IMG/VR virus record: IMGVR_UViG_3300045996_000441
Span: 1-36,355 of that record
Length of the DNA stretch: 36,355 nucleotides
Reading direction: 5' to 3' (one strand)
Source: a virus
Shown piece by piece: positions 1,662 to 35,584 of the stretch; positions within the stretch are counted from its first letter, which is position 1; each line of letters starts with the position of its first letter. A program made the translations under genes and the position numbers. Below the pieces are notes generated by a model that had not been told where the DNA came from, did no database searches, and worked only from the letters and a program-made list of their open reading frames with translations.

Positions 1662-1690
1662 TTCGTACGTTACGCAATACGTGTTGTCAA
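1662..1690 (-). promoter_or_regulatory. Promoter P0, sigma-70-like, for the operon starting at 1640
   Basis: On the minus strand TTGACA (1690-1685), a 17-base spacer and TACGAA (1667-1662) precede the first gene. The predicted +1 is near 1655, giving a leader of about 15 bases with a GGAAAGGA site. Spacing and -10 form match the other seven minus-strand promoters, but the internal TTTGAC seen in most of them is missing. Confidence 0.6.
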
Positions 1691-1714
1691 GGGGTGTTTT
1701 AGTATGTGGTGAGA

Positions 1715-1930
1715 ATGTATTAGCGGTACGTATTATATCGTTGCGGTCCGTTCGGTTCGTATAATACATTTTTGTCGTTACGTGATGTTAAGTAGTTTTT
1801 TCTATTAGGGACATTAAAAAGTATATAAAAGTATAGTATATATATAATATATTAAGTAGTAATAGTATAAGATGGAATATATTTCCCCCTAGGTTAGAAA
1901 AAAACTGCAATACATCGGCATGTATTAGCG
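1715..1930. other. AT-rich control region with repeated ATGTATT heptamers, candidate origin
   Basis: This stretch between two co-directional minus-strand genes is far more AT-rich than the rest of the window, with long TA runs around 1817-1860. The 11-mer ATGTATTAGCG occurs as a direct repeat at both ends (1715-1725 and 1920-1930). The heptamer ATGTATT or its complement occurs four times (1715, 1763, 1909, 1920). The last two form an inverted repeat around CGGC. Iteron-like repeats plus an AT-rich segment fit a replication origin or a regulator-binding region. I see no gene in it. Confidence 0.45.
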
Positions 1931-2167
1931 TTGAGGGTCGTCCAAAGCGGCTCGCAACGGCTCGCCAGTCCGCGTTACGCGCTTAATGGCGAATTCCGCG
2001 CCGTCCTCCGGGACCGCAACGGTAACGTCACCGTCGCACCAATCGGCATGCGCAACCAACGTATCCGCCAGCCGGGCGAGAACCCGAGCGGCCGAACGCA
2101 ACGCGCCGTCCTGCGCATAGGTGCGCGCAAGCTCGGTCTGTTCGGTGAATGTGTCGTGCATGTTCAT
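1925..2167 (-). CDS. Hypothetical protein
   Basis: An 80-residue acidic protein of unknown function, last gene of the operon that starts at 2809. ATG 2167 overlaps the stop of the Rmf-like gene (ATGA); a second ATG lies two codons later. The N-terminal half is an Ala-rich amphipathic helix (ARTYAQDGALRSAARVLARL), the C-terminal half mixed beta (GDVTVAVPEDGAEFAIKRV). The stop codon abuts the repeat that bounds the AT-rich region. Confidence 0.7.
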   Translation of the reverse strand: MNMHDTFTEQTELARTYAQDGALRSAARVLARLADTLVAHADWCDGDVTVAVPEDGAEFAIKRVTRTGEPLRAALDDPQR

Positions 2168-2301
2168 GAGTAAAACTCGCTTTCTTCGTGGTCATCCCGT
2201 TCCGCATCGTTCCAGCCGTTACGCCAGTCTTGCGACGCGTTCGGATCGTGCGGCAGATTTGCGCGCCGTGCGTTCCATCCTGCTTCGTATTCTTTGGTCA
2301 T
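2164..2301 (-). CDS. Rmf-like small protein (ribosome modulation factor family)
   Basis: A 45-residue protein coupled by ATGA overlaps on both sides. The pattern E-Y-E-A-G-W-N-A-R-R, then P-N, then D-W-R-N-G-W-N-D-A-E (residues 5-34) matches the layout of ribosome modulation factor and related phage/plasmid proteins: a first helix with G-x-x-A, a Pro/Asn turn and a second helix W-x-x-G-W-x-x-A. Rmf dimerises and inactivates ribosomes in stationary phase. A phage copy could modulate host translation, but this is inferred from a short pattern. The C-terminus is acidic, unlike basic bacterial Rmf. Confidence 0.6.
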   Translation of the reverse strand: MTKEYEAGWNARRANLPHDPNASQDWRNGWNDAERDDHEESEFYS

Positions 2302-2603
2302 TGCGATAGCTCCCTAGGCAGGCCCCATTGTTCGCGCAGAGCGCGCGAGCCGGGGTGTTGAAGTCGATCGCGCATTTGATCCTTTAGGAGATCGATGTAG
2401 CGCTGTGCGCAGTTGATGGCGTCGGCGCGCTCTGCATATGCGCGACCCTGTAGCTGTTTGGTCTGCGCCCGTCCCGGACCGTTGTAGCGGTAAATCGGTA
2501 CGTGTGGGTACGCAGGGTTGCGCCCGCGCTTGACCGCATCGGCGCGATAATGGCCGTACGCTGCGTTTACTGCGGTGTCGAGTTGTTCAGGTGTGAGGGG
2601 CAT
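2298..2603 (-). CDS. Hypothetical protein
   Basis: A 101-residue basic protein starting at ATG 2603 after a GGAG site that sits directly behind the preceding stop. It begins with a helical segment (PLTPEQLDTAVNAAYGHYRA), followed by a Tyr/Pro-rich middle and a helical region rich in Arg, Gln and Ala (residues 50-85). It is co-transcribed and coupled to the Rmf-like gene. No known domain is seen. Confidence 0.75.
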   Translation of the reverse strand: MPLTPEQLDTAVNAAYGHYRADAVKRGRNPAYPHVPIYRYNGPGRAQTKQLQGRAYAERADAINCAQRYIDLLKDQMRDRLQHPGSRALREQWGLPRELSQ

Positions 2604-2614
2604 GTGCGTTGCTC

Positions 2615-2809
2615 CTATAGGTAAGAAATCTGCGAGGCTTCGGCGCCGTTATCGATCAGTTCGGCTTTACCTTCCTTGATCGAATTGACACCGTACACCG
2701 TGAAAATCTCACCGTCGTACAGACCGATCACGGTAAATGGTGCGGTTTCGTCGCGCGAACCGTACTCGGCTTCCATGGCGTCACTGTCTGCGATGATGAA
2801 CGTTTCCAT
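2615..2809 (-). CDS. Small acidic hypothetical protein, probably leaderless mRNA
   Basis: A 64-residue acidic protein with a compact alpha/beta look (FTVIGLYDGEIFTVYGVNS). ATG 2809 lies exactly at the predicted transcription start of promoter P1 (6 bases after the -10), so its mRNA should have no 5' leader; no Shine-Dalgarno is visible because the promoter itself occupies that space. It heads a four-gene operon (2809 to 1925). Function unknown. Confidence 0.75.
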   Translation of the reverse strand: METFIIADSDAMEAEYGSRDETAPFTVIGLYDGEIFTVYGVNSIKEGKAELIDNGAEASQISYL

Positions 2810-2815
2810 ACGTTT

Positions 2816-2844
2816 GGTCTAGACGCGTCAAACCAGTCTGTCAA
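2816..2844 (-). promoter_or_regulatory. Promoter P1 with internal TTTGAC
   Basis: Minus strand: TTGACA (2844-2839), 17 bases, TAGACC (2821-2816). The spacer contains a second TTTGAC starting 12 bases after the first T of the -35 box. The predicted +1 is 2809, the A of the downstream ATG. The stop codon of the upstream gene (2828-2830) lies inside the internal TTTGAC. Confidence 0.75.
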
Positions 2845-3010
2845 GCGCTTCGTCAAATGAATTGCACACACCGAAGCGAAAATCCGGCATGCGAGTTGTC
2901 CAGCGCCAGCCGAGTTTGTCAAACCATATCATGCCGCGCATGTGGTTCCCTTGCCATACGTACACGCCTGTCAGGTGGCGCAGCGGGGCTAGGACGACGT
3001 TGGGGCGCAT
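2828..3010 (-). CDS. Hypothetical protein
   Basis: A 60-residue protein, last of the operon that starts at 4561. ATG 3010 overlaps the end of the preceding 43-residue gene by 22 bases; ATG codons at residues 24 and 27 are alternatives, so the start is uncertain. It is rich in Trp and Phe (YVWQGNHMRGMIWFDKLGWR) and ends in a small helix (NSFDEALDRLV). Its stop codon falls within promoter P1. No family recognised. Confidence 0.6.
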   Translation of the reverse strand: MRPNVVLAPLRHLTGVYVWQGNHMRGMIWFDKLGWRWTTRMPDFRFGVCNSFDEALDRLV

Positions 3011-3120
3011 GTTTTGTACTCTACGCGGTTCAGGTGCGGAAAATACATAGCGCTTATGACACCGCGTTTGATCATCGGCAGCATAATCACGTTATGGATG
3101 CGGAGGGTGTATCGGGTCAT
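2989..3120 (-). CDS. Small hypothetical protein
   Basis: A 43-residue frame supported mainly by translation signals: GGAGG lies 8 bases before ATG 3120, and the start is one base after the TAA of the previous gene, a spacing typical of this operon. The peptide is basic and moderately hydrophobic (IHNVIMLPMIKRGVISAMYF), possibly one amphipathic helix. It overlaps the next gene in another frame. Function unknown. Confidence 0.55.
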   Translation of the reverse strand: MTRYTLRIHNVIMLPMIKRGVISAMYFPHLNRVEYKTCAPTSS

Positions 3121-3121
3121 G

Positions 3122-3451
3122 TTAAATCCTCCGCAATTTAGGCAATCGCCATGCTGGTGACGTTGACGGCATGTCCGCGCCGTTAAACTCGCTGGATAAA
3201 AGCTTGCCGAACTCCGCAGCGTGCATGCGCGTGCGAGGGTCTAACGCGGCTTCCCAACGGATTGCCCACGGCATCGGGTCGCACGGATCGTTGTCGAGTG
3301 CGATAGGGCGCCCAAGCGATCCGTACTGACCGCGCATGGCGTGTTTGATGACGGCGCGTTGAATCGGTCCGTCCGCGCGCTCTAGCAGGGTTGAGCCCCA
3401 TAGATAGCGGCTGATCGGCTCGGGTACGTCGTCGCATGGATCGTCAGTCAT
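3122..3451 (-). CDS. Hypothetical protein
   Basis: A 109-residue protein starting at ATG 3451, overlapping the previous stop in ATGA. It contains two D-P-C-D motifs (residues about 4-7 and 55-58) and a Trp-rich C-terminal part ending in a basic tail (LPKLRRI). The paired cysteines in acidic D-P-C-D contexts are unusual and might bind a metal or form a disulfide, but no family is recognised. It sits mid-operon between unknown genes. Confidence 0.75.
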   Translation of the reverse strand: MTDDPCDDVPEPISRYLWGSTLLERADGPIQRAVIKHAMRGQYGSLGRPIALDNDPCDPMPWAIRWEAALDPRTRMHAAEFGKLLSSEFNGADMPSTSPAWRLPKLRRI

Positions 3452-3822
3452 TTAAAATACTCCGCGATCTTGGCGGCAATCGACGCGCTAAGCGGATCGT
3501 TCGCGCCGTCGAACAGGTCGGAAAGGTGGCGTAATTCTTCGTCGGTGAATGTGATTGGGCTCCGTCCGCGTAATGCGTGCTGTTGGGCTGCGAACGCGGC
3601 GCTACGCTCTTTGAAGGTCGGTTTGTATTTATGAATACGCGCTTGTATCGCGTTGATCCGCTGTTGCAGCATGAAGCTGCCGAAAGTGTGACCGACGTAC
3701 GTTTGCGCTCGCTTGCCGCGCATTAGATGGTTGTGGATAGCGTCACGTTCCCGATGCCACGTCCAACCGAACGGTTTGCCCGGTACGTTGTCGTAACCGC
3801 GACCTAACCAATTCTCAGTCAT
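3448..3822 (-). CDS. Hypothetical basic protein
   Basis: A 124-residue protein. I chose ATG 3822 (MTENWLGRGY) because it overlaps the preceding gene's end by 8 bases; the open frame upstream is inside that gene. It is rich in His, Arg and Gln, with a predicted helix at residues about 50-85 and a C-terminal helical segment (DEELRHLSDLFDGAND) followed by SASIAAKIAEYF. The basic middle might contact nucleic acid, but no known fold is recognised. Confidence 0.75.
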   Translation of the reverse strand: MTENWLGRGYDNVPGKPFGWTWHRERDAIHNHLMRGKRAQTYVGHTFGSFMLQQRINAIQARIHKYKPTFKERSAAFAAQQHALRGRSPITFTDEELRHLSDLFDGANDPLSASIAAKIAEYFK

Positions 3823-4141
3823 CGCGGTTTCTCCAATCGGTACGGGGCGCGACAATCCGCGCAACAACATCGTCGTTTGACAGGATATGCAACGACATGC
3901 GTCCGGGCGGCAACTCCTGATCGGCCGGGACGGTTAGCTTTGCATGGCTGTAGTACGCGAACTGATAGCGCATATCGTCCATATAGCGACGGCACGCCCA
4001 TTGCACCGGTTCGACCATCGCCAGCGCGGCACGCTCCGTATCGAACGGACCACATAGCCAAGCGGTGCGCTGGTTCGCCGTGCCGGGGTCGATACGTGCT
4101 GTGACGTACCATGCGGTCAGTTTGCTAGGGCGCCGGGGCAT
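3815..4141 (-). CDS. Hypothetical protein
   Basis: A 108-residue protein with a basic start (MPRRPSKL) followed by beta-like segments (WYVTARIDPG, TAWLCGPFDTERAALAMV) and a C-terminal strand region. It begins one base after the TAA of the upstream gene, and its stop overlaps the next start. The layout resembles the small single-domain alpha/beta proteins common in phage early regions. Function unknown. Confidence 0.75.
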   Translation of the reverse strand: MPRRPSKLTAWYVTARIDPGTANQRTAWLCGPFDTERAALAMVEPVQWACRRYMDDMRYQFAYYSHAKLTVPADQELPPGRMSLHILSNDDVVARIVAPRTDWRNRDD

Positions 4142-4142
4142 G

Positions 4143-4358
4143 TTAGACGACTCGCGTTACGCTGTACGGCGTGGTCGGATGCTTTTCGTTCATGTAGCAC
4201 TTGACGAATTCCGCTTCGTCGCGGTTGAACACGTCGAGCCGTGTTGCATCGCCTTTGCCGTCCGCGACAAGTTGCGCGCCATAGTCGCACATTTCGATTA
4301 GACCGCGCTCGCCGTCGTCTGACCAGCGTATGTTGTCGTAGAACCGGTTGACGGTCAT
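4143..4358 (-). CDS. Hypothetical protein
   Basis: A 71-residue acidic protein, second gene of the 4561 operon, coupled by ATGA to the first. Residues 1-30 are rich in Asp, Trp and Tyr, then a helix (NRDEAEFVKCYMNEKH) precedes a short C-terminal strand (YSVTRVV). No domain is recognised. Confidence 0.75.
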   Translation of the reverse strand: MTVNRFYDNIRWSDDGERGLIEMCDYGAQLVADGKGDATRLDVFNRDEAEFVKCYMNEKHPTTPYSVTRVV

Positions 4359-4561
4359 AACTCAATCCTCTTGATGATGCGTTCTGCGGCTTCGAACCCC
4401 TCACGCAAGGTCGTTGTGATTTCCCCGTTATCCGCAAACGATCCGTCGTTGCGCCGTACTTCGACTTCCCAACCGGGGCGGCGGTTGCGCTTCGATATCG
4501 TGGCGTAATGGTCCGCGCTGTTCAGTCGGTGATAACCGGCTATGACCTTTTCGCGTTGCAT
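4355..4561 (-). CDS. Hypothetical protein, first gene of the operon
   Basis: A 68-residue protein. ATG 4561 follows GGAG at a good distance and lies about 20 bases downstream of the predicted +1 of promoter P2; a GTG further upstream would be inside the promoter and is rejected. The sequence looks like a small beta-rich domain (YATISKRNRRPGWEVEVRRN) with a C-terminal helix (LREGFEAAERIIKRIEL). It may be distantly related to the 35318-35524 protein, which has the same promoter, leader and size, but I cannot show homology by eye. Confidence 0.75.
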   Translation of the reverse strand: MQREKVIAGYHRLNSADHYATISKRNRRPGWEVEVRRNDGSFADNGEITTTLREGFEAAERIIKRIEL

Positions 4562-4588
4562 GGTCAGGTACTCCGTGTTGATGATCAA

Positions 4589-4617
4589 TCGGTACACCGG
4601 TCAAACTGGTCTGTCAA
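4589..4617 (-). promoter_or_regulatory. Promoter P2 with internal TTTGAC
   Basis: Minus strand: TTGACA (4617-4612), 17 bases, TACCGA (4594-4589), with a second TTTGAC inside the spacer (4605-4600). Six bases later the predicted transcript starts at 4582 with ATCAACACGG, followed by GGAG and ATG 4561. The same start sequence occurs at P3, P4 and P7. Confidence 0.8.
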
Positions 4618-4632
4618 ACGAAAACGTGACGA

Positions 4633-4662
4633 TTGACCGCCCGCACCGCCTCGGGGTATATC
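4633..4662 (+). promoter_or_regulatory. Possible promoter for the packaging and virion operon
   Basis: TTGACC (4633-4638), 18 bases, TATATC (4657-4662) just before the small terminase gene. The predicted start of transcription is about 4 bases before ATG 4673, and no ribosome-binding site is seen, so translation may be nearly leaderless. It lies back to back with P2. Confidence 0.5.
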
Positions 4663-4672
4663 TCCGCACGTT

Positions 4673-5266
4673 ATGAACGCCGTAACCTTCATTTCTGCGT
4701 ACCGCTCGCTCCGCCCGGCCGAAAAGGCGTTCGTTGACGATTACGTACAGCGGTGCGAGCAAGAGGCGCTTGCACGTAACGAACGGATCGCGCTCGCGCT
4801 GCATCGGCCTGTCGAGCCCGACCCACGCGGCTATCTGCAAATGCCGATGGTCTGTGCCGCCATCGCCGAACGGATCACGCAGATTGCGGCCGATAGCGAG
4901 TTGAGCGTCAACCGCGTGATCCGGGAGATTGCGGCGATAGCGTTCAGCAGCATGGACGATTTTTGCGTCACGGATGAAGCGAGCGGACAAAAATACTTGT
5001 CGCTGTCCCAATGCACGCCCGAGCAAATGCGCGCCGTCGCCGGGGTCGAAATGACCGAAGGGCTGCGCGGTCGGCAACTCAAGATCAAGCTGCACAGCAA
5101 GCTTGACGCGCTCAAGATGCTGGCAACGTACGTCGGCGCGCTTGAGACGGACAATCCGCACTGGCGAGCCGAACAGGCAAAGCAGATAGGCGATAGCGCC
5201 GCGCTCCCGGCCGATATCAGCACGGAGGGCGCGGCGGATCGTTATGCGCGTTTGATCAATGGTTAG
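4673..5266 (+). CDS. terS: Terminase small subunit
   Basis: A 197-residue protein that should recognise phage DNA and hand it to the large terminase for packaging. The N-terminus (residues 8-27, SAYRSLRPAEKAFVDDYVQR) and the following helix are typical of small-terminase DNA-binding domains, with a partner-like helix MVCAAIAERITQIAADSELS. The C-terminal section L-K-I-K-L-H-S-K-L-D-A-L-K-M-L-A-T-Y-V-G (around residue 140) is the conserved oligomerisation region of this family. Position just before the large terminase agrees. It heads the virion operon; its end overlaps the convergent gene at 5256 by 11 bases. Confidence 0.85.
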   Translation: MNAVTFISAYRSLRPAEKAFVDDYVQRCEQEALARNERIALALHRPVEPDPRGYLQMPMVCAAIAERITQIAADSELSVNRVIREIAAIAFSSMDDFCVTDEASGQKYLSLSQCTPEQMRAVAGVEMTEGLRGRQLKIKLHSKLDALKMLATYVGALETDNPHWRAEQAKQIGDSAALPADISTEGAADRYARLING

Positions 5267-5507
5267 GGGTCAAGCGACCTTCGGCTTCGCGAATGATAGC
5301 CATCGCGTATTCTGCGTCTTCGTCCGATATTTCACCTTCGCTGATCGCAGACGGAAAAAGCCCGGCATATCGACCGTTAAAAAGTTCGGTTTGTATTTCT
5401 TGCCAGTCCATGCCGTTAGCTGTTTGTGCTTCGGCGAACTCAATCGCTTGTTCGCGCATCGTATGACGCGGGATCATGTTGCCAAATTGTGTAGGTACGT
5501 ATTCCAT
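5256..5507 (-). CDS. Hypothetical acidic protein, single-gene minus-strand cassette
   Basis: An 83-residue acidic protein inserted against the direction of the packaging genes. ATG 5507 is chosen because it follows GGAG and the ATCAACACGG leader of promoter P3; the longer open frame upstream runs through the promoter. The sequence is helical, with two Glu/Asp-rich stretches (SEGEISDEDAEYAMAIIREA). Its opposite orientation and own promoter mark it as a moron-like gene between the two terminase genes. Function unknown; acidic proteins of this size can be DNA mimics, but nothing specific supports that. Confidence 0.75.
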   Translation of the reverse strand: MEYVPTQFGNMIPRHTMREQAIEFAEAQTANGMDWQEIQTELFNGRYAGLFPSAISEGEISDEDAEYAMAIIREAEGRLTPNH

Positions 5508-5538
5508 TCTCGTAACTCCGTTCCGTGTTGATCGTTCG

Positions 5539-5567
5539 TCCGTACAGCAATCAAATAGGTGTGTCAA
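5539..5567 (-). promoter_or_regulatory. Promoter P3 with internal TTTGA
   Basis: Minus strand: TTGACA (5567-5562), 17 bases with internal TTTGA, TACGGA (5544-5539), then 6 bases to a predicted start at 5532 with ATCAACACGG. The -35 box directly abuts the ATG (5568) of the plus-strand gene on the other side. Confidence 0.75.
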
Positions 5568-5834
5568 ATGGTAAGTGAATTCGAACGACGCGCATGGGAC
5601 ACCCGGACCGATGCGGATAAAAACCCGCCTGCGTTGGCGCTCAAAATTGCGCTTGATGATATCGAGCGCGGCGAAATCGATCCGGTGCATATCATCGTTG
5701 TGCACGTGCAGCGAGACGACAAAGGCGAGTGGGTCGGATATTTGCAAGCGGGCGATCTATCGACCTTCGCCGTTGAAGGCGTCCTAGCGCGTGCTGCGCG
5801 GATCACCGCCGAGTCCGCGCGCTGTAGTGATTGA
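5568..5834 (+). CDS. Hypothetical protein upstream of the large terminase
   Basis: An 88-residue protein starting at ATG 5568; an earlier in-frame ATG three codons upstream is inside promoter P3 and less likely. The core has a beta hairpin (PVHIIVVHVQRDDKGEWVGY) followed by a helical C-terminus (VEGVLARAARITAESAR). Its stop overlaps the likely terminase start by 8 bases. Small proteins of this kind often lie between the terminase genes of siphoviruses, but I do not recognise a named family. Confidence 0.75.
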   Translation: MVSEFERRAWDTRTDADKNPPALALKIALDDIERGEIDPVHIIVVHVQRDDKGEWVGYLQAGDLSTFAVEGVLARAARITAESARCSD

Positions 5835-7545
5835 CCTTTTCGCCCCGCCTGTCGAAATCGTCCCGACTGTCGAGCCGTGGAAGCCGCGGGCGCTTGCCCA
5901 CGAAGAATGGCCCCCGAACTACAAGGGTGTCTATGCGTGGCGTATCAAGACGCTCGCTGCGCTACGTGCCGATGCGTCCTTGGTTGTCGAAGCGAAGCGC
6001 TATTACAAGACGCGCAAGGGCGAGTTTATCCAACATTGGATGGACACGTACAATCCGCGCTTGCGGGGCGTCAAATGGGTGCCGTTCGTCTTCTTTGAAC
6101 GGCAGGACGAATTTATCCGGTTCGTTGAGGAACTGGACCGCGACGAAGAAAACGGATTGGTCGAGAAATGCCGCGACATCGGCGCAACATGGCTCGCCTG
6201 TGCCTATAGCGTCGCGTGTTGGTTGCTCGACAATGACGACGCGACCGGATGGGGCTCGCGCAAGCAAGAGCTAGTCGATAAGCTAGGCGATCCGGATAGC
6301 ATATTCGAGAAAATGCGGCTGTTGGTCCGTCGTTTGCCCGACGTGTTCTTGCCCGATGGGTTCCGGACGCGCGAACACGCAACGTTTATGAAGCTGGTAA
6401 ATCCGGCGAACGGATCGACCGTAACGGGTGAATCGGGTGACAACATCGGCCGCGGTGGTCGTAAAAAGCGCTATTGGAAGGACGAAAGCGCGCACTACGA
6501 ACGCCCGGAAAAGATTGAAGCGGCGCTAGGCGACAACACGAACGTTCAGATTGATATATCGTCGGTCAATGGGCTCGGGAACGTGTTCCACCGTCGCGCG
6601 GACAGTGCGGTTGAATGGCGCCCCGGTGTGGTCGTTGAGCCCGGACAGGTGCGCAAATTTATATTCGATTGGCGGCATCACCCGGAGAAAACGCAAGAGT
6701 GGTACGACCAGCGCAAGGCGAAGGCCGAGCGCGAGGGTATGCAGCATATCTTTGCGCAAGAGGTTGACCGCAATTACAGCGCCGCGGTTCAAAACACGAT
6801 CATTGCGTATGAGTGGTTGCAAGCGTGTATCGACGCGCACCTAACCGTACCGTACCTAGCGCGCGTCCAGCCGCCGAACGTTTGGAGCGCCGGGCTCGAC
6901 GTTGCGGACAATGACGGCGTAGGTGATCGGAACGCGCTGACGTTGCGCCAATGGATCATTCTGCGCAGCAATGAGGAATGGGGCGAACGCGATCCGGGCG
7001 TAACGGCGCGGCGTGCGATTACGTCGTTGCGCCGGTACAAAGGCATTAAGGTCCAGTACGATCCGATCGGCGTTGGATCGGGTGTCAAGACCGAATACAA
7101 CCGGCTAATCGAAGACGACAAGATTATAACGCGTCAAGACGTTCAGTTTATTCCGTGGCATGCCGGCGCTTCGGTGGTCAATCCGTTCGATCGCGTCATA
7201 CCTGACGATGACGACAGTATCAAGAATGGTGAAATGTTCGGGAACATGAAAGCGCAAGCTTGGTGGTCATTCCGAACGCGCGTCTATAAGACGTGGCGAG
7301 CCGTAACGTTCGGCGACGTGTACCCGGCTGATCAACTGATTAGTTTTGACAGTAGCAACCCGCATTTGCTGGCGTTGCTGAAAGAGCTTGCACAGGTGGT
7401 CAAGAAAGCCGGTCCGGGGCTGACCATGATCATTGACAAGTCACCGCCCGGAACCCGCTCGCCAAACCTCGCTGACAGTGCTATTCAGGCGTTCTTTCCG
7501 GCTCCGGAGCATCAAGGGCCGCTTGTGGGGAGCTATTCCGGGTGA
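5827..7545 (+). CDS. terL: Terminase large subunit (ATPase and nuclease)
   Basis: A 572-residue DNA-packaging motor. Motifs in order: an adenine/Walker-A-like C-R-D-I-G-A-T-W at about 115-122 (the R-x-x-G-x-T/S-W form of terminases), a Walker B-like Y-W-K-D-E-S at about 216-221, then the RNase-H-fold nuclease with first Asp in A-G-L-D-V-A-D (about 358), V-Q-Y-D-P-I-G (about 412) and a late Asp in N-L-A-D-S-A near the C-terminus. The start is uncertain: GTG 5827 overlaps the preceding gene, and GTG 5791 is an alternative. It is coupled to the portal gene by GTGA. Confidence 0.9.
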   Translation: MIDLFAPPVEIVPTVEPWKPRALAHEEWPPNYKGVYAWRIKTLAALRADASLVVEAKRYYKTRKGEFIQHWMDTYNPRLRGVKWVPFVFFERQDEFIRFVEELDRDEENGLVEKCRDIGATWLACAYSVACWLLDNDDATGWGSRKQELVDKLGDPDSIFEKMRLLVRRLPDVFLPDGFRTREHATFMKLVNPANGSTVTGESGDNIGRGGRKKRYWKDESAHYERPEKIEAALGDNTNVQIDISSVNGLGNVFHRRADSAVEWRPGVVVEPGQVRKFIFDWRHHPEKTQEWYDQRKAKAEREGMQHIFAQEVDRNYSAAVQNTIIAYEWLQACIDAHLTVPYLARVQPPNVWSAGLDVADNDGVGDRNALTLRQWIILRSNEEWGERDPGVTARRAITSLRRYKGIKVQYDPIGVGSGVKTEYNRLIEDDKIITRQDVQFIPWHAGASVVNPFDRVIPDDDDSIKNGEMFGNMKAQAWWSFRTRVYKTWRAVTFGDVYPADQLISFDSSNPHLLALLKELAQVVKKAGPGLTMIIDKSPPGTRSPNLADSAIQAFFPAPEHQGPLVGSYSG

Positions 7546-11350: not shown

Positions 11351-11368
11351 GACGACAATAAACCGCCG

Positions 11369-11385
11369 CCCGGTCGGATACCGGG
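11369..11385 (+). terminator. Weak stem-loop with T-rich tail before the scaffold gene
   Basis: CCCGGT and ACCGGG pair around a 5-base loop and are followed by TATTTT. It lies in the 100-base gap between the SGNH gene and the scaffold gene, where it could partly stop transcription or cut translation coupling. A 6-base stem is modest. Confidence 0.4.
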
Positions 11386-12648: not shown

Positions 12649-12819
12649 TCATTCAGCGGCGACGTAAACGTGTCCGTCCTTGTGAATGAACGTCGCGCCG
12701 GTCGGCAATTCTGCATTGATTTCTTCCGCGATGCCTTCCGCCGTTTCGAGCGCTTCGGTTGCGCTATCCGCTTCAACCTTGATCAGGACCACTGCGCGAA
12801 ACTCGTATGTGCGTGTCAT
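12649..12819 (-). CDS. Small hypothetical alpha/beta protein
   Basis: A 56-residue protein with the pattern beta-helix-beta: TYEFRAVVLIKVEADS, then SATEALETAEGIAEEINAEL, then ATFIHKDGHVYV. This resembles small phage proteins with a ferredoxin-like half-fold, but no function is known to me. ATG 12819 is preferred over the longer frame because it follows a GGGG-type site and the transcript start of promoter P4. It is the first gene of the cassette. Confidence 0.75.
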   Translation of the reverse strand: MTRTYEFRAVVLIKVEADSATEALETAEGIAEEINAELPTGATFIHKDGHVYVAAE

Positions 12820-12846: not shown

Positions 12847-12875
12847 CATATAAACCCGTCAAACTGGTCTGTCAA
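12847..12875 (-). promoter_or_regulatory. Promoter P4 with internal TTTGAC
   Basis: Minus strand: TTGACA (12875-12870), 17 bases with internal TTTGAC, TATATG (12852-12847), 6 bases, then a predicted start at 12840 reading ATCAACAACGG. Its -10 is the closest of the set to the TATAAT consensus. Drives the 12819-12367 cassette. Confidence 0.8.
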
Positions 12876-12902
12876 ATGAAAAACGAACCGCACCCAAGGC
12901 GC

Positions 12903-15562: not shown

Positions 15563-16123
15563 TTAGCCGTTCGGGTTATCCGTGCGGAACACGCGGGCGC
15601 TCGCGCCGTCCGGGTCGGTCGAAGGATCGACATCATAGACGCGGAAATACTTGGCGTGTTCCTGCTCGCGCTCCTGCGTCGGGACGGCGATCGGGTTGCC
15701 AGCCGCATCCTTGAGCGTCTGCATCTTGAACTTCGGCGAGCCGTCCGGGTTGGACGCGGGCTGCAACTGCTTCTTGTTCGCCGCGCTGACGACGCTGCGA
15801 AGCTGCTTGGCCGTCTTGTTCATGACAGCGAAATTTGCGTAGAGCGTGTTGCCGGCGTCGTCGGTCTTCGGCGCTTCGAGCGATTCGAAGTTATAGACCG
15901 ACTTGCTGCCGCGGTTGGTCTTCGGCTTGACCGGGAGAGCAAGGAAGGTTGGCGCAGTGATGATCGGCGTTGCGCGGTCCTGCGTGCTGGCGGTCGTTGC
16001 GGCGGGTTCGGGCTGCGGTGCGTCGGCGGGAGCTTCGGCGCCCTTGGCGCCCTTGCCGGAAGCGAAAGCCTGCGGCATGATCGCGAGCGACGACGCAGCA
16101 AGCAAGAGATTCAGATTACGCAT
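15563..16123 (-). CDS. Hypothetical cassette protein with signal-like leader
   Basis: A 186-residue protein coded against the virion operon, with its own promoter (P5), a GGAG site before ATG 16123 and its own terminator: a complete moron. The first ~22 residues (MRNLNLLLAASSLAIMPQAF) form a hydrophobic leader ending A-S-G. An Ala/Pro-rich linker follows (about 27-50), then a charged region with Y-N-F-E-S-L-E-A-P-K-T-D and M-N-K-T-A-K-Q-L-R-S-V-V, and P-D-G-S-P-K-F-K. I do not recognise the family. It could be exported, or belong with the other leader-bearing phage proteins. The overlapping plus-strand frame is rejected. Confidence 0.75.
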   Translation of the reverse strand: MRNLNLLLAASSLAIMPQAFASGKGAKGAEAPADAPQPEPAATTASTQDRATPIITAPTFLALPVKPKTNRGSKSVYNFESLEAPKTDDAGNTLYANFAVMNKTAKQLRSVVSAANKKQLQPASNPDGSPKFKMQTLKDAAGNPIAVPTQEREQEHAKYFRVYDVDPSTDPDGASARVFRTDNPNG

Positions 16124-16156: not shown

Positions 16157-16185
16157 TCGTTACGCCCCGTCAAATGAAAGGTCAA
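16157..16185 (-). promoter_or_regulatory. Promoter P5 with internal TTTGAC
   Basis: Minus strand: TTGACC (16185-16180), 17 bases with internal TTTGAC one base closer than in the others, TAACGA (16162-16157), predicted start near 16150 and a 26-base leader with GGAG before ATG 16123. One base off consensus in the -35 box. Confidence 0.7.
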
Positions 16186-16190
16186 CCCCT

Positions 16191-21070: not shown

Positions 21071-21077
21071 GCGGCAA

Positions 21078-21105
21078 GCCTTAGCAAATCTGACATAGGT
21101 GTCAA
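21078..21105 (-). promoter_or_regulatory. Promoter P6 for the AAA+ cassette
   Basis: Minus strand: TTGACA (21105-21100), 16-17 bases, TAAGGC (21083-21078), with a start predicted near 21071, one base before ATG 21070, so the mRNA would be leaderless. The internal element is degenerate (ATTTG). The ATG of the plus-strand gene lies only 7 bases from the -35 box. Confidence 0.6.
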
Positions 21106-21111
21106 ATTCAA

Positions 21112-21955: not shown

Positions 21956-22489
21956 ATGCGTTCCATTCTGCTTTCCGCCGCGTCCGCTGCGGTTATCGCC
22001 GCGCCGGGGTTCAATACCAACGCCGGATCGAAGCTTTTCATCTGCACCACGCCGCAGCAAAGCAACCTCATCGAATCCGCTTTCGCCGGTCTGACGTGGG
22101 TTCAGATCAAGGGCGTCGGCTCGCTTGGCGAAACCGGCACGACGACCAACATTCTGACCTACGATACGTGGGACGATGACGTTGTGCAGAAAGCCAAGGG
22201 TATGTCCAATGCGGGCGATCCGGAAATCGAGCTTGCCCGCAATCCGACCGATCCCGGACAAGTCGCCTTGCGCGCCGCCGCGCTGACCAATCTGAACTAT
22301 GCGTTCAAGGTCGAGCGCAACGACGAACCCGACGCCGATCCGGACAGCACGCCGACTGTCATCTATCACCGCGGGCTTGTTACCGGGCCGCGCCGTCCGA
22401 ACGGTCGCAACGAAGACTTCGATCTTGAAGTTTTCTCGCTCGGGATGAACCAAAAGGAAATCGTGGTCAATCCGACTTCCGGTCTGTAA
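21956..22489 (+). CDS. Major tail tube protein with signal-like leader
   Basis: A 177-residue tail tube subunit. From about residue 25 the sequence follows the lambda/HK97-type tube family: S-K-L-F-I-C, F-A-G-L-T-W-V-Q-I-K-G-V-G-S-L-G-E-T-G, N-I-L-T-Y-D-T-W-D, K-G-M-S-N-A-G-D-P-E-I-E-L-A. Ahead of it is a hydrophobic leader of ~18 residues (MRSILLSAASAAVIAAP) not expected for this family. The leader must be translated: no ATG, GTG or TTG is found between ATG 21956 and the conserved core, and GGGAG lies at the right distance. It is followed by a strong terminator, as is usual for tube genes. Confidence 0.85.
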   Translation: MRSILLSAASAAVIAAPGFNTNAGSKLFICTTPQQSNLIESAFAGLTWVQIKGVGSLGETGTTTNILTYDTWDDDVVQKAKGMSNAGDPEIELARNPTDPGQVALRAAALTNLNYAFKVERNDEPDADPDSTPTVIYHRGLVTGPRRPNGRNEDFDLEVFSLGMNQKEIVVNPTSGL

Positions 22490-30320: not shown

Positions 30321-32287
30321 TCGGTCGTCAATTGCAATTGCAAGGTCGCGGGATGACCGGAGCGTCCTTTGCGGCGATTGCGCGTATGACCGGCGCGTTT
30401 GGTGTTGTGCCGTCCGACAATGATACCGCAGTGATGAATAAATTTGCGGATTATGCGATAGAAGAAAACCCCGGATTTCAAAGCACCATTCCCGGTCCAC
30501 CGACTTTTACCACGTTGGCGACTTTTCGTGCTGCGCCCGTATCAAATCGTAAACAGGCTTTGCTTGATCCGTCTTATTCGTCGGGCGACTATTATTTCGA
30601 AACGGTAAACGCACCTTATACGGAAGCGCTGCCGAACGTAATCAAGGCGGATTCGACTGCACTTTCTGTCGGCGCGTGGGTGCGTCAGTCGGCGAAATCA
30701 ATCGTAATTCAGGCGCCCGGTGAAGGAGGTATCATTGAACCTCTTGAGAGTACGGTTAACCGGACGGGGGTTGACGTACAGCGTTATGGTGCGAGCGGAA
30801 ACGGGTTGGTCGTTGATACTTACCCGTTGCGGTTGGCAATAGCGCAAGCTCGCCTGTCATTGTCTGACGGATCGCGCACGTTCGCCACAAAGGTAAAAAT
30901 CCCTGCCGGTCGTTATCTTTTTGACGACGAGTTGGATTTGGCCGAAAACGGGTCTGTCACGGGTTTGACGATTTGCGGCGACGGTGCCGGATCGACCGAA
31001 TTTGTAAGACTGAACGGAGCGGCGCGCATCATTGCGCCCGGTTCGCGCGATCTGACTTTTCGCGATTTAACAATTCGTACACTCGATAAAGCTGTGGACA
31101 CGGACATTTGGTCCGAAGGTGATCCGTACGGGCTGGCGTTGGGTGGCGAAGCGTTCGGCGTATGGTATGACTTCGGGCCGGGTCTATCAACTCTGCGTTC
31201 TTGGCGCTTCGAACGTGTTACCATGTCGGGACACTATAAGTGTTTCGACGTGGAAGGCACGGCAATGTGTAGCGAATTTTATTTCGACACTTGCCAATTC
31301 TATCAGAATTTTATTCTGAAGCATAATAAAAACGATCAAGCGGTCAATTGGGCTTACGTCAACTGCAATTGGGAAAACGAAGCGCTAGACACGACTGGTA
31401 CGGACTTGCTCAAAAAAGACGCAAAAGCGTTCTGGTTCGAAGAAGGCGATTTCGTTAGCTGGAAAAACGGGTCAATCATTGGCTACGGTCAGTTTTTCCA
31501 TTTTGATGCGACTTCGGACAATGTGTTTACCAACGCATCGCACAAGTTCATCTTGGATAGCGTTCGAATTGAACGCAGCGACGACGCCGGGACAAGCGCG
31601 CCGTTGTTTGGTCGTCGCGAAGACGGATACGAAGTCGCAGGTAATTCCGTCTCAATTTCGATGGTGCGAAGCACAGTCCTTTTGCTCGGTGCGATATCCG
31701 ATTATGTTTATTCCGATCTGTGGGACGGCTCGAATATTACAATTGACGATTGCCGTTGCGAAGACGGAAAGATCATCGGTGTCTATGGTCCTGCGTCAAG
31801 TGCTAATCTCGCTACATTAAGTGTGACCAATACCACCGGCTTAAGCTACGTCGATGATAAAACCGGGAAGATAAGTTCTCATATCAAACACAACGTAGAT
31901 ATACCCGGTTTCCATCAGCGATCGGACTCGTTGAGCAAGCCTTATCTATTGAACCCGATTATCATGTATTTCCGCGGTCCGACCGGAAGTTTGCCGCTAG
32001 GCGGTACAACGGTTAACATCGACATTCTAAACGATTACACGGTTCTGCGTAAATTCATGATCCGACGTTTTACGACGGGCGACTTCCCGTTGACCGTGCA
32101 GTTGTGTGATCAGGCTGACACGTTGGTTTTCGCGCAAGCGGTATTAGCGTCCGGAACGTCACTTACTGCCGACGCGGAAATCAATCTTGAAATGGGCTTT
32201 CAGTTGCCGACCGGCACGCCTTTGATGTTTAAATTCATCGGCTCGCCCGAGCAAATAAAGGGTTTTGTGGGATTGGAGTTGATCTAA
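30317..32287 (+). CDS. Tailspike with pectate-lyase-like beta helix
   Basis: A 656-residue protein. Residues about 155-200 have the tailspike entry motif V-D-V-Q-R-Y-G-A-S-G-N-G, D-T-Y-P-L-R-L-A-I-A-Q-A, and I-P-A-G-R-Y-L-F, as in pectate-lyase-superfamily (Pectate_lyase_3) depolymerases. About 350 residues of irregular repeats (L-T-I-R-T-L, W-R-F-E-R-V-T-M, I-I-G-Y-G-Q-F) fit a right-handed beta helix; the C-terminal ~110 residues are likely a receptor or trimerisation domain. The first ~60 residues should attach it to the tail. The gene is more AT-rich than its neighbours, as is common for host-range genes. Its TAA overlaps the next ATG. Confidence 0.8.
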   Translation: MIGRQLQLQGRGMTGASFAAIARMTGAFGVVPSDNDTAVMNKFADYAIEENPGFQSTIPGPPTFTTLATFRAAPVSNRKQALLDPSYSSGDYYFETVNAPYTEALPNVIKADSTALSVGAWVRQSAKSIVIQAPGEGGIIEPLESTVNRTGVDVQRYGASGNGLVVDTYPLRLAIAQARLSLSDGSRTFATKVKIPAGRYLFDDELDLAENGSVTGLTICGDGAGSTEFVRLNGAARIIAPGSRDLTFRDLTIRTLDKAVDTDIWSEGDPYGLALGGEAFGVWYDFGPGLSTLRSWRFERVTMSGHYKCFDVEGTAMCSEFYFDTCQFYQNFILKHNKNDQAVNWAYVNCNWENEALDTTGTDLLKKDAKAFWFEEGDFVSWKNGSIIGYGQFFHFDATSDNVFTNASHKFILDSVRIERSDDAGTSAPLFGRREDGYEVAGNSVSISMVRSTVLLLGAISDYVYSDLWDGSNITIDDCRCEDGKIIGVYGPASSANLATLSVTNTTGLSYVDDKTGKISSHIKHNVDIPGFHQRSDSLSKPYLLNPIIMYFRGPTGSLPLGGTTVNIDILNDYTVLRKFMIRRFTTGDFPLTVQLCDQADTLVFAQAVLASGTSLTADAEINLEMGFQLPTGTPLMFKFIGSPEQIKGFVGLELI

Positions 32288-32439
32288 TGGGAAAACGTAC
32301 AATCAAACAAATCGAAAACGAAATGCGCGAGGAAAGCCTTATCGAGCCGTGTATAGAAAACGGTTGGCGCGGGCCGGACGATGCAAAGATACTGCGCCTT
32401 CAAACCGAGCGTAACGAATTGACGAAGGAGAAAAAATAA
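32287..32439 (+). CDS. Small hypothetical coiled-coil protein
   Basis: A 50-residue charged protein (Lys/Glu-rich, IKQIENEMREESLIEPCIEN and a C-terminal helix RLQTERNELTKEKK). It is coupled by TAATG both to the tailspike and to the next gene, a tight arrangement that supports it as real. It may be a chaperone or connector for the spike, but this is guessed from position only. Confidence 0.65.
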   Translation: MGKRTIKQIENEMREESLIEPCIENGWRGPDDAKILRLQTERNELTKEKK

Positions 32440-32672
32440 TGTCGATCAAATCGGATATTCTCGCAGCGCAGAACGCGCTGAACGAAGCACACGAAGACGG
32501 CCCGTCCCAAGCGCTCGATAACGCGCACCGGATGGCGTGGGATTTGCTCTTGCGGCACTACGTCAAGCTAGGGCTAACCCGCGCCGACTTGCGCGAGATT
32601 CATAGCCGTGGCAATATACAGGCGTTCGGTGGCGGGACCGGCAAGACGCCACCGCCCGAGCCTGACGGCTAA
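32439..32672 (+). CDS. Hypothetical helical protein
   Basis: A 77-residue protein starting in a TAATG overlap with AAGGAG 8 bases before. It is mainly helical (ILAAQNALNEAHEDGPSQAL, LLLRHYVKLGLTRADLREIH) and ends with a Gly/Pro-rich tail (GGGTGKTPPPEPDG). The G-G-T-G-K-T motif is at the very end and is not part of a P-loop fold. Possible spike chaperone or regulator; unknown. Confidence 0.7.
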   Translation: MSIKSDILAAQNALNEAHEDGPSQALDNAHRMAWDLLLRHYVKLGLTRADLREIHSRGNIQAFGGGTGKTPPPEPDG

Positions 32673-32686
32673 GAGGTATCGAAGGC

Positions 32687-33223
32687 ATGCGGTTGGTACT
32701 GATCATCTTTACCGCATGCCTCGCTATAGCGGGCTCTTTCGCGTTCTATGGTCCTTTAGGGACGGCTTACGGCGCCTTGTGCGCCGTTTGCTTTTGGGCC
32801 GTGTGGCGTGATGCTGACTGGCGAGCCGCGGGCGCCGCACTCGGCCTTAGCTGGGTAATCTCCAACCTGATTTGTGTTATTGGCAACCCGCCCGAAAGAC
32901 CGGCAGTCTTTTCGGGTGCGGAAATGCTCGTCCTGATGTCTGCTTTCGTGTGTTGGTTCAGCGGTCGATATACGATCGCGGCTCGCATGCTGGCGGTCGT
33001 ATCGTTCGTTTCGATCGCGTGTAACGTGTTGCTTGCCGGGTCTGCTTTCGAGTGGGCGGATATTCACGCACATGAGGTCCGGACGAACATCGCGTTTGCG
33101 GTTGAATGTCTGATTGTCGGATTTACCGGGATGCGCGAACGTGGTTATTTCGATCGTTTGTTTAGTCGTCGCGGCCATAGTGCTGCAAATCATGTTCATG
33201 CGCAAAAGGCCAGCGAGCAATGA
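32687..33223 (+). CDS. Multi-span membrane protein
   Basis: A 178-residue protein with about five hydrophobic segments: residues 3-22 (LVLIIFTACLAIAGSFAFYG), 24-42, 50-67, 75-93, 98-117, perhaps 130-147. It precedes the lysis genes, so it might be a holin or anti-holin, but it is longer than most holins and ends in a basic, His-rich cytoplasmic tail. Coupled by ATGA to the next gene. Family not recognised. Confidence 0.65.
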   Translation: MRLVLIIFTACLAIAGSFAFYGPLGTAYGALCAVCFWAVWRDADWRAAGAALGLSWVISNLICVIGNPPERPAVFSGAEMLVLMSAFVCWFSGRYTIAARMLAVVSFVSIACNVLLAGSAFEWADIHAHEVRTNIAFAVECLIVGFTGMRERGYFDRLFSRRGHSAANHVHAQKASEQ

Positions 33224-33669
33224 CCGATCTTAATGCGTTGGACATCGAAACGATTCGCGGTTGGGCTTCGACGGGGTTCCTAGGTTTTATCGCTTTTACG
33301 TTGGCGCGCTTCGCGTCTCCGATCGGCGCGTATATGGTCAAACGTCTGGAAGTCAACGCACAAGAGCGCAAGGACGAACGTGACGGATACGGGCCGTTGA
33401 TCAAAACGCTAACGGACGGGCTCGCGGCGGTGCGTGAACAACTCGCACAGTGCGAGCAACGACACGTCACGGACGTTGCGCGGATCGATCAGCTTGAGGC
33501 AACGGTACGCGGCTTGAACGCGGTTGTTGTGGGGAAGGCGTCACAGGAAGCCGTCATGCTCCCGGCGACGACGGGCGATCAGCGCGAGCATATGTTACAG
33601 ATAGCCGAGCGGTCGGCGAGCGCCGCGCTCGACATGATCAGCAAAGAACGGAGCGGCGGAAATGGATAA
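33220..33669 (+). CDS. Single-span membrane protein with coiled coil
   Basis: A 149-residue protein with one hydrophobic segment near the N-terminus (ASTGFLGFIAFTLARFASPI, residues about 16-40) and a charged helical remainder (residues 45-100, with a likely coiled coil including VREQLAQCEQRHVTDVARID). This layout is found for some phage lysis-region proteins. It overlaps the endolysin gene by 8 bases. Function is not certain; possible holin-associated protein. Confidence 0.65.
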   Translation: MTDLNALDIETIRGWASTGFLGFIAFTLARFASPIGAYMVKRLEVNAQERKDERDGYGPLIKTLTDGLAAVREQLAQCEQRHVTDVARIDQLEATVRGLNAVVVGKASQEAVMLPATTGDQREHMLQIAERSASAALDMISKERSGGNG

Positions 33670-34261
33670 AGCGGTATTCTTCGAAGCTCTGCGCGCCCGG
33701 TCCGTTCCGCTCGGGCAAGGCGCTACGCTCCGTCTCGCTGACAGTCAGGTCGGCGGGTTCGAAACGGTGTTGCACGCCTGCAAAGGCTCGCCGCTCGCGC
33801 ACGCTACGTATATGCTCGCCACGGCGTGGCACGAGACAAACGCAACGATGTTGCCAGTTCGGGAAGCCTATTGGCTGTCCGAAGCGTGGCGCAAGAACAA
33901 TCTGCGCTATTGGCCGTGGTATGGTCGCGGATACGTGCAATTGACGTGGATCGACAATTACCGCCGCGCCGACAAGGAATGCGCTGCGGCCGGGTTGATC
34001 AAGCTCGGCCAGTTGCTCGCCGATCCGGACCTAGCCATGCGTCCCGATATCTCTGCGTTCATCATGCGCAAGGGTATGGACGAAGGTTGGTTTACCGGCG
34101 TCAAGCTCGCATCGGTCTTGCCGCCTGTCGGCGTCGCAACGCGCGTCCAGTACATGAACGCACGAACGATCATCAACGGTCGCGATAAATCGGACCTGAT
34201 CGAAGATTACGCACAAGTGTTCGAACGCGCGTTGCGCAATGCTGGATGGCTGGACAAATGA
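33662..34261 (+). CDS. Endolysin, glycoside hydrolase family 19-like
   Basis: A 199-residue peptidoglycan hydrolase. A-T-A-W-H-E-T (Glu58 in residues 54-60) is the catalytic segment of GH19-like lysozymes, followed by W-Y-G-R-G-Y-V-Q-L-T-W-I-D-N-Y (86-100), the family signature. No signal peptide is seen, so release probably depends on a holin. Gene overlaps its neighbours on both sides. This enzyme cuts the glycan strands between sugars. Confidence 0.85.
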   Translation: MDKAVFFEALRARSVPLGQGATLRLADSQVGGFETVLHACKGSPLAHATYMLATAWHETNATMLPVREAYWLSEAWRKNNLRYWPWYGRGYVQLTWIDNYRRADKECAAAGLIKLGQLLADPDLAMRPDISAFIMRKGMDEGWFTGVKLASVLPPVGVATRVQYMNARTIINGRDKSDLIEDYAQVFERALRNAGWLDK

Positions 34262-34599
34262 AAGTATTGCGCGACATGACGTTTCGCGATTGGCTCGCGT
34301 TGTTCTTATTGAACGCGTTTGTCGCCGTGATGTTCTATCTGTTGCGCAATGTCATCCCCAAGGAAAACGAACAGCTAATCGTTTATATGCTCGGACAGTT
34401 GTCCGGGTTCACCGGCACAGCGTTGGCTATCTATTTCACACTCAGCAAGCACGACGAACAGCGCGAACAAGTCCGATCGGAAAATACGACCAAGCTGACC
34501 GACACTGTTGCGGCGCTCGCTCAAAACGCGACGACAACGCAGCCGGGGCCGTCAGGCAATCCCGGCGATCCGGTCCATACGGTGGAGGAAAACCGATGA
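34258..34599 (+). CDS. Putative holin, two transmembrane segments
   Basis: A 113-residue protein. I take ATG 34258 (ATGA overlap with the endolysin) rather than the ATG four codons earlier. Two hydrophobic segments, residues about 11-28 (WLALFLLNAFVAVMFYLL) and 42-63 (YMLGQLSGFTGTALAIYFTL), with a charged, Pro/Gly-rich tail. Size, topology and position between endolysin and spanins fit a class II-like holin. No sequence family identified. Confidence 0.65.
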   Translation: MKVLRDMTFRDWLALFLLNAFVAVMFYLLRNVIPKENEQLIVYMLGQLSGFTGTALAIYFTLSKHDEQREQVRSENTTKLTDTVAALAQNATTTQPGPSGNPGDPVHTVEENR

Positions 34600-34994
34600 A
34601 TCTAAGCGCTCTGTTTGACGGTCCGGTCGGCGCGCTCGTTACGGGCGCTGCGGTGGCCGCTCTGTGCCTTCCGCTCGGCTATTGCGCCGGACAGGACGCC
34701 GCGCGTTCGCGTGCCGCTGCGGAGCGATCCGCGGCGAACGTCGAGGCGCTGAACACAGCCCGCAGCGCGGACGAAGCGGCCGGGGTTGCTCGGGTCAACG
34801 ACGCGCTCAAGGGCGCCGCACAGCAAGAGGAATTGCTAGATGCTATCCAGACCGTACCGGACGTTGCGCCCGATGACGTGCGTGTTGCTCTTGGCTGTAA
34901 GCGCCTGCGCGCGGCCGGAACGCCTGCAACCGCTATTCCCGCCGTCTGCGGACCTACAGGCGGTGACGGAGCCCAAGCCGCTCCCGCCCGCTGA
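34596..34994 (+). CDS. Rz: Inner-membrane spanin (Rz-like)
   Basis: A 132-residue protein with an N-terminal transmembrane segment (residues about 10-30, PVGALVTGAAVAALCLPLGY), a helical, Ala/Arg-rich periplasmic part predicted as coiled coil (33-85) and an L-G-C-K-R-L-R-A-A-G motif (about 108-117) like the C-terminal region of i-spanins. It should bridge to the outer-membrane lipoprotein to fuse the membranes at lysis. The o-spanin gene lies partly within it in another frame. Confidence 0.75.
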   Translation: MNLSALFDGPVGALVTGAAVAALCLPLGYCAGQDAARSRAAAERSAANVEALNTARSADEAAGVARVNDALKGAAQQEELLDAIQTVPDVAPDDVRVALGCKRLRAAGTPATAIPAVCGPTGGDGAQAAPAR

Positions 34995-35130
34995 TATCGT
35001 CACGTCGGCGCGTGCTGCGGCCGAGTACGACATAGCTATCGAGGCTTGGGGCGATCGGCTCCGGGCCGCGGGCGTCAGACTGTGCGTGTGGACCGTGGCG
35101 AACGGCAACCCGGTCAGGTGCGAGCCCTAG
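34873..35130 (+). CDS. Rz1: Outer-membrane spanin lipoprotein (Rz1-like), overlapping Rz
   Basis: An 85-residue lipoprotein read in a different frame that overlaps the Rz-like gene for 122 bases and continues past it. ATG 34873 gives M-T-C-V-L-L-L-A-V-S-A-C, with lipobox V-S-A-C and acylated Cys12, followed by Pro-rich sequence (PERLQPLFPPSADL). Upstream in-frame starts exist but give a longer N-region. Overlapping i-/o-spanin frames are usual for phages of Gram-negative bacteria. Confidence 0.75.
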   Translation: MTCVLLLAVSACARPERLQPLFPPSADLQAVTEPKPLPPADIVTSARAAAEYDIAIEAWGDRLRAAGVRLCVWTVANGNPVRCEP

Positions 35131-35321
35131 AGCTTCGGCGCGGCGAGCATGACTAGGCACGCGTCCCAATGCGTTTCAACGGTCAGGATAACGCCCGCGG
35201 TCCGCTCGACAACATCGCAACTCGACGCGTAATAGTCGCCCGGCGCGAGCTTCGCGGCCCGATCGTTGGCGCGTTCGTACTGTGCGATCCGATCGCCGCG
35301 GATTTGGTCTAGGGTGGTCAT
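35127..35321 (-). CDS. Hypothetical protein
   Basis: A 64-residue protein. ATG 35321 overlaps the stop of the preceding gene (ATGA); a start six codons earlier is less likely. Helical first part (LDQIRGDRIAQYERANDRAA) and a beta-rich end with two Cys. Its TAG shares the CTAG with the TAG of the o-spanin gene on the other strand. Second gene of the small operon from P7. Confidence 0.7.
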   Translation of the reverse strand: MTTLDQIRGDRIAQYERANDRAAKLAPGDYYASSCDVVERTAGVILTVETHWDACLVMLAAPKL

Positions 35322-35524
35322 GCTACGTCCCCCAACCATGCGCCGGTCAGCTTGAAGTAATAACGCTGGTCGGCGCGCAGACCGTAAAGGTTGCTGTCCG
35401 GGTGAATTTCATAGTCTGGACCTTCGTAAGCGCAAAACCGATCGCCCAACATCGCCTTGCAAGCGTTCCGTGCTGCGCGAACTGCGGCGCTGCGGGTGCT
35501 GTAGGTTTTGCGAGCTTCGGTCAT
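35318..35524 (-). CDS. Hypothetical protein, first gene after promoter P7
   Basis: A 68-residue protein with a basic N-terminal helix (RSAAVRAARNACKAMLGDRF) and a strand-rich end with Y-E-I-H-P-D, Y-Y-F-K-L. ATG 35524 follows GGAGT and the ATCAACACG leader of P7. It resembles in size and context the other first genes behind these promoters. Function unknown. Confidence 0.75.
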   Translation of the reverse strand: MTEARKTYSTRSAAVRAARNACKAMLGDRFCAYEGPDYEIHPDSNLYGLRADQRYYFKLTGAWLGDVA

Positions 35525-35555
35525 GGTGGGTAACTCCGTTCGTGTTGATATACGA

Positions 35556-35584
35556 CCGGTACACCCGTCAAATCAGTCTGTCAA
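35556..35584 (-). promoter_or_regulatory. Promoter P7 with internal TTTGAC
   Basis: Minus strand: TTGACA (35584-35579), 17 bases with internal TTTGAC, TACCGG (35561-35556), 6 bases, and a start at 35549 reading ATCAACACG. The -35 box includes the stop codon of the polymerase gene (35581-35583). Confidence 0.8.

Follow-up and report, generated by a model that had tools for sequence, protein, structure and literature searches.

A predicted multi-copy minus-strand promoter with a putative direct-repeat operator in a Rigallicvirus-like siphophage, and its counterparts in related phages

Does one promoter with an extra box in its spacer recur along the minus strand of a siphophage genome, and what kind of protein would read that box? 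The question is raised by virus record IMGVR_UViG_3300045996_000441 (36,355 bases; this whole stretch is called the window here), for which a preliminary description listed eight minus-strand copies of one promoter, six of them with a second TTTGA(C) between the -35 and -10 boxes. The window phage is a Rigallicvirus-like siphophage, and its closest named relatives are the Rhizobium phages RHph_X2_24 (X2_24; portal identity 57%), cultured on Sinorhizobium americanum, and vB_RglS_P106B (P106B; portal 55%), cultured on Rhizobium gallicum. The plus strand carries the virion genes (terminase, portal, head morphogenesis, tape measure, tail fibre). On the minus strand are the end of a DNA polymerase gene (35581-36291), open reading frames (ORFs) for an AAA ATPase and a DUF7192 protein, and numerous small ORFs without assigned function. 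The record probably covers only part of a genome: the primase, the helicase and two helix-turn-helix (HTH) genes, all present in relatives, were not found in the window, and many relatives measure 44-58 kb. No RNA family or tRNA was found in the window.

Five minus-strand sites form one family with the consensus TTTGACAGACyrgTTTGACgGGTgTA. Their -10 boxes lie at 2816, 4589, 5539, 12847 and 35556, and the first T of the -35 TTG at 2844, 4617, 5567, 12875 and 35584, respectively. TTGACA-N17-TANNNN was found in all five, and the second TTTGA(C/T) stands exactly 13 bp after the first, which makes two half-sites of the same orientation at a fixed spacing. Counted from the first T of the TTG, the second TTGAC is at +13, the -10 box at +23 and the ATG at only +35 to +60, so the leaders are short; ATCAAC and a purine-rich ribosome site occur in four of them. 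The predicted targets are ORFs of 56-83 aa, and no Pfam match was obtained among those tested. The sites are as follows.

2816..2845, minus strand: predicted promoter/operator, CTTGACAGACTGGTTTGAC-GCGTC-TAGACC, reads CTTGACAGACTGGTTTGACGCGTCTAGACC; predicted to drive ORF 2615-2809 (64 aa), with the predicted start approximately at the ATG (near-leaderless)
2852..2857, minus strand: third, upstream TTTGAC, 12 bp before the -35 box of the 2816 promoter
4589..4618, minus strand: predicted promoter/operator, TTTGACAGACCAGTTTGAC-CGGTG-TACCGA, reads TTTGACAGACCAGTTTGACCGGTGTACCGA; predicted to drive ORF 4355-4561 (68 aa)
5539..5568, minus strand: predicted promoter/operator, TTTGACACACCTATTTGAT-TGCTG-TACGGA, reads TTTGACACACCTATTTGATTGCTGTACGGA; predicted to drive ORF 5256-5507 (83 aa)
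12847..12876, minus strand: predicted promoter/operator, TTTGACAGACCAGTTTGAC-GGGTT-TATATG, reads TTTGACAGACCAGTTTGACGGGTTTATATG; predicted to drive ORF 12649-12819 (56 aa), which lies between virion genes
35556..35585, minus strand: predicted promoter/operator, TTTGACAGACTGATTTGAC-GGGTG-TACCGG, reads TTTGACAGACTGATTTGACGGGTGTACCGG; predicted to drive ORF 35318-35524 (68 aa)

The family was recovered by several analyses. When the window was compared with itself without any seed, pairs of family sites came out as the strongest repeats (29/32, 27/32, 26/32 and 25/32), and in leave-one-out models each omitted site ranked 3-5 of 72,710 positions. TTGAC pairs at 12 or 13 bp numbered six on the minus strand and none on the plus strand, against a mean of 0.1 and a maximum of 2 in 60 randomised sequences. 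When up to three mismatches were allowed, TTTGACANANNNNTTTGAC occurred 10 times in the window, compared with 1.85 expected, and none of 100 shuffles reached 10; equal frequency at random positions is what the preliminary description had named as refuting. Its statement that no copy serves the plus-strand virion genes also holds, because a position weight matrix (PWM) scan gave no family copy on that strand, in agreement with the pair count. Two minus-strand PWM hits (3525 and 7727) lack TTGAC; they came in by iteration and are not trusted. A generic sigma-70 consensus scan of the window did not list the five sites, though a -35 and a weak -10 box 17 bp apart are present in each of them.

At 2816 three TTGAC units stand in tandem (2856, 2844 and 2831; steps of 12 and 13, giving TTGAC pairs at 12 and 25 bp). 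The TGA stop of the upstream ORF lies within a TTTGAC box at 35581, 5564, 4601, 2828 and 16182, and that of the DNA polymerase gene (35581-35583) falls inside the first box of the 35556 site. We considered TTTGAC as a mere holder of the TGA stop and rejected this, because the stop is in the first box at some sites and in the second at others; it reflects tight gene packing and is not the cause of TTTGAC. A spacer palindrome (ACCNGT-TTG-ACNGGT) was good in two sites and not in others, and was dropped.

The remaining three of the eight listed sites fit the family model less well or not at all.

16157..16186, minus strand: probable spacing variant, GTTGACCTTTCATTTGACGGGGCG-TAACGA; predicted to drive ORF 15563-16123 (186 aa)
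1662..1690, minus strand: promoter-like, non-member, TTGACA-N17-TACGAA without a second box; model rank 191
21077..21106, minus strand: promoter-like, non-member, TTTGACACCTATGTCAGATTTG, without a second box at 12-13 bp; model rank 61; close to where the AAA ATPase ORF starts

Site 16157 has TTGAC-N7-TTGAC, with the repeat at 12 bp instead of 13, and ranked 53; it is probably a 12-bp spacing variant of the family. So eight equal copies reduce to five and one plausible variant. The count of six second boxes stands only if 16157 is included, and the labels P1-P5 and P7 attached to them do not: by position they are the second to fifth sites, the sixth (at 12 bp) and the eighth. The 186-aa ORF has a weak DUF7303 match and relatives in 15 of the compared genomes, and in P106B it likewise lies opposite the virion genes.

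Relatives were collected by portal and terminase searches, which gave dozens of IMG/VR contigs; about 20 of these were analysed over almost their whole length (named by G numbers below), plus P106B and X2_24. By grouping TTG-seeded sites within each genome, we identified 71 sites forming multi-copy promoter families in 14 phages (the window phage and 13 relatives). The families were built from hand-checked seeds and some loose PWM hits were excluded by judgement, and site numbers are approximate. Common to all 14 families are a TTGAC-type -35 box, a spacer of 17 bp whose sequence each phage conserves among its own sites, a -10 box and a short leader, with the ATG mostly 54-66 bp from the -35 box. 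Leaders and ribosome sites are also alike within one phage, and 61 of 64 placeable sites lie opposite virion genes. The families in the relatives are as follows.

G002 (8 sites), G012 (5) and G034 (4): elements close to TTGACCATCGCaacAACCATCGCTATAAC
G006 (5 sites): TTGACGACCATCGCAATGACCATTATA
G022 (5 sites): TTTGACACATTATTTGACATATGTTATA
G021 (7 sites): AAAATAACTCTTGCACCAACCGTTGCGCCGTG
G028 (4 sites), G026 (5), G004 (8), G031 (3), P106B (6), X2_24 (4) and G015 (2): other spacers

P106B and X2_24, which are terminase and portal relatives, each have their own family, nearly all of it opposite the virion genes, with a spacer element (TTGACGCACAATTAGAAACG) unlike that of the window. No convincing TTG-seeded family was obtained for G003, G017, G018, G023, G024, G025, G027, G029 and G030, of which G023 may have an X2_24-like family that starts differently. 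A search of relatives for the motif had been proposed, and its outcome was divided: equivalent families with other sequences are present in relatives, but the exact window element was found in no other phage. Exact-pattern scans of IMG/VR and 84,980 prokaryote genomes yielded either no match or isolated ones, roughly as many as chance would produce, and with one site as query, blastn against phage records returned only matches of E=0.08. A AAAATAAC-like tract directly precedes the -35 box in many family promoters of G021, G012, G034, G006, G026, G015 and X2_24, and is perhaps an UP-like element.

In the window, in G021, G022 and G006 and in the G002, G012 and G034 group, the sequence that overlaps the -35 box recurs in the spacer 12-13 bp further on. 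We assessed this repeat in each of the 14 families by keeping the -35 columns fixed and permuting the spacer columns. The p-values, uncorrected for 14 families, were p<0.0005 for the window (lag 13), p=0.0005 for G022 (lag 12, TTTGACACATTATTTGACA), p=0.0025 for G021 (CTTGCA...TTGCR, lag 12 or 13), p=0.0035 for G034, p=0.004 for G012 and p=0.0125 for G006, and the repeat was weaker in G002 and G028. It is present in 5/5 sites of the window, 5/5 of G022, 5/7 of G021, 4/5 of G012, 4/4 of G034, 4/5 of G006 and 7/8 of G002, compared with 2-6% (lags 12-13) of the TTG-seeded sites in these genomes that do not belong to a family. The half-sites of G021 are kept, and the bases that separate them vary. 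The elements of G002, G012 and G034 are almost identical and are counted once, so that about five different sequences share this spacing.

For sigma-70 the -35 and -10 boxes are required and the sequence of the spacer is not, so the conserved spacer suggests another protein. We infer that the five sites, probably six, are active host sigma-70-type promoters, used early, with a phage-specific operator of two half-sites, read by a probably phage-encoded protein that is more likely a repressor; we give this reading an even chance. The -35 region and the 17-bp spacer would hold two head-to-tail TTTGAC half-sites, spaced by 13 or 12 bp, and the first would double as the -35 box. A putative DNA-binding protein would occupy both, and the set of small minus-strand genes would be shut down together, most simply by exclusion of RNA polymerase; a repressor is the simplest reading because half-sites that cover the -35 box and the spacer would exclude the polymerase. 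Relatives would keep the arrangement with their own operator sequence, as is expected if regulator and operator change together. Since the sequence differs between phages and the geometry is constant, the protein is more likely phage- than host-encoded, and the comparison suggests that each phage may have its own switch protein for its small genes. The preliminary description had proposed that the extra box may serve as an operator or activator site and make the minus-strand genes one regulon. This part agrees with the conserved spacer, with the same architecture under other sequences in relatives and with the third copy at 2856, once eight equal copies are given up.

Some observations weigh against repression through such an operator. 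The -10 boxes of the window family are weak (TAGACC, TACCGA, TACGGA, TATATG and TACCGG), which would also suit an activator. Six of the 14 families (P106B, X2_24, G004, G026, G031 and G015) have conserved spacers with no significant 12-13 bp repeat; therefore the repeat is common and not universal, and a phage-specific conserved spacer is what all families share. Three HTH families conserved in most relatives count as support: P106B gp70 (HTH_17, adjoining the primase), gp60 (weakly TetR_N-like) and a family with window member 504-986 (minus strand). None of them could be tied to the operator, and across relatives their similarity tracked operator similarity no better than other genes did.

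It is unlikely, but conceivable because the -10 boxes are weak, that a phage protein on both half-sites helps sigma-70 RNA polymerase at poor promoters, as lambda CII does on its direct repeats. The G021 half-sites TTGCR resemble the CII half-site. Few proteins are known to bind direct repeats, and CII is one of them (PMC4752584). However, the first half-site is a near-consensus -35 box and RNA polymerase would cover the second, in the spacer, where an activator would be unusual, and G002, G012 and G034 combine good TATAAC -10 boxes with the same arrangement. A reading without dedicated regulator, which we also consider unlikely, is that one promoter cassette spread with the small genes by duplication or recombination, its spacer being kept by recent ancestry or for promoter strength. 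The predicted targets are indeed small ORFs, many of them placed among virion genes in the manner of mobile gene cassettes; leaders and ribosome sites resemble each other within a phage too, and some families lack the repeat. Against this reading stand the half-sites that are kept while adjoining bases differ (G021, G022 and the window), the 12-13 bp repeat common to families of distinct sequence, and the third TTTGAC at 2856, which plays no part in the promoter.

The early genes might be linked to the state of the host through one of its own transcription factors, for example CtrA, LexA or a different direct-repeat binder of alphaproteobacteria, and functional CtrA sites (TTAA-N7-TTAA) do occur in alphaproteobacterial phages (PMC9437464). 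We regard this as very improbable, as the window has no TTAA-N7-TTAA and the repeat sequence is not constant across phages: the window differs in it even from G021, its closest terminase relative found. That the motif is chance or an artefact of reading is practically negligible: three of the eight listed sites misfit the family model, but for the five family sites this is already refuted by the leave-one-out and shuffling results, and matching families occur in relatives.

A wider reading of the operator model, which we consider doubtful, is that most lineages of this alphaproteobacterial siphophage clade may run small early genes from one multi-copy promoter whose -35 box is the first of two half-sites 12-13 bp apart, the half-site sequence having been replaced repeatedly along with a fast-evolving phage regulator. 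If true, the clade would supply regulator-operator pairs of a single architecture but many sequences, a natural series in which to study how DNA-binding specificity changes and how phages turn whole groups of small genes on or off. The promoter would also mark which small ORFs of no known function are co-expressed, a practical handle on them.

Multi-site phage operator sets, direct-repeat phage operators and direct-repeat host sites in alphaproteobacterial phages are already known. The repressor operators and stoperators of mycobacteriophage L5 and cluster A are 13-bp elements that occur inside transcription units too and are recognised by the immunity repressor of temperate phages; like the five similar sites of one orientation in the 36 kb of the window, they are asymmetric copies spread over one genome, oriented with transcription, some in promoters (PMC9283540). 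The window sites differ in lying at promoters only and in being built of tandem half-sites, and neither a repressor gene nor a lysogeny module was identified in the window phage. The P2 C repressor also binds direct, not inverted, repeats in the early promoter Pe, but these are 8 bp long, 22 bp centre to centre and flank the -10 box of a single promoter (PMC4752584), whereas the window repeats are 12-13 bp apart, run from the -35 box into the spacer and recur at five or more promoters. Apl, Cox and Xis excisionase-regulators and BldC are small winged-helix proteins that bind head-to-tail on direct repeats and repress promoters (PMC7498355, PMC5859096). The HTH_17 protein kept beside the primase in most relatives is a likeness, with no link to the operator found; the repeats of these regulators are about 9-11 bp apart (10-11 bp for Apl; PMC7498355) and often more numerous, unlike the 12-13 bp here. 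CtrA sites are likewise half-site repeats, with a 7-bp gap, in phage regulatory DNA, but they have another half-site (TTAA), belong to a host regulator and cluster in gap regions (PMC9437464). Nothing in the limited literature searched, with the P106B genome paper outside it, combines a 12-13 bp repeat starting on the -35 box, its presence in many promoters and a sequence that each related phage has replaced by another.

Concerning the non-member site near the AAA ATPase gene, 21105 (minus strand) and 22490 (plus strand) both have TTGACAC-N4-GTCAGATTTG, with TGACA...TGTCA symmetry at 21105. The former precedes the AAA ATPase gene; the latter is just past the stop of ORF 21956-22489 and before a GGGGAGC...GCTCCCC hairpin. 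The element was not seen in such form in relatives.

Two of the HTH families showed further features. The 504-986 protein family occurs in 14 genomes, often as two adjoining copies (e.g. P106B 51059-51472 and 51469-51945), with an HTH/NUMOD-like match in the C-terminal part and an N-terminal part that is GIY-YIG-like by eye. The leader of the HTH_17-primase operon carries direct repeats of about 10 bp, GTGTAAAA/GTGCAAAA, unlike the family operator. They lie just upstream of 44859 in P106B (L076) and upstream of about 2900 (minus strand) in X2_24 (L077), similar ones occur in G003 and G012, and they are possibly an autoregulatory or origin-like site.

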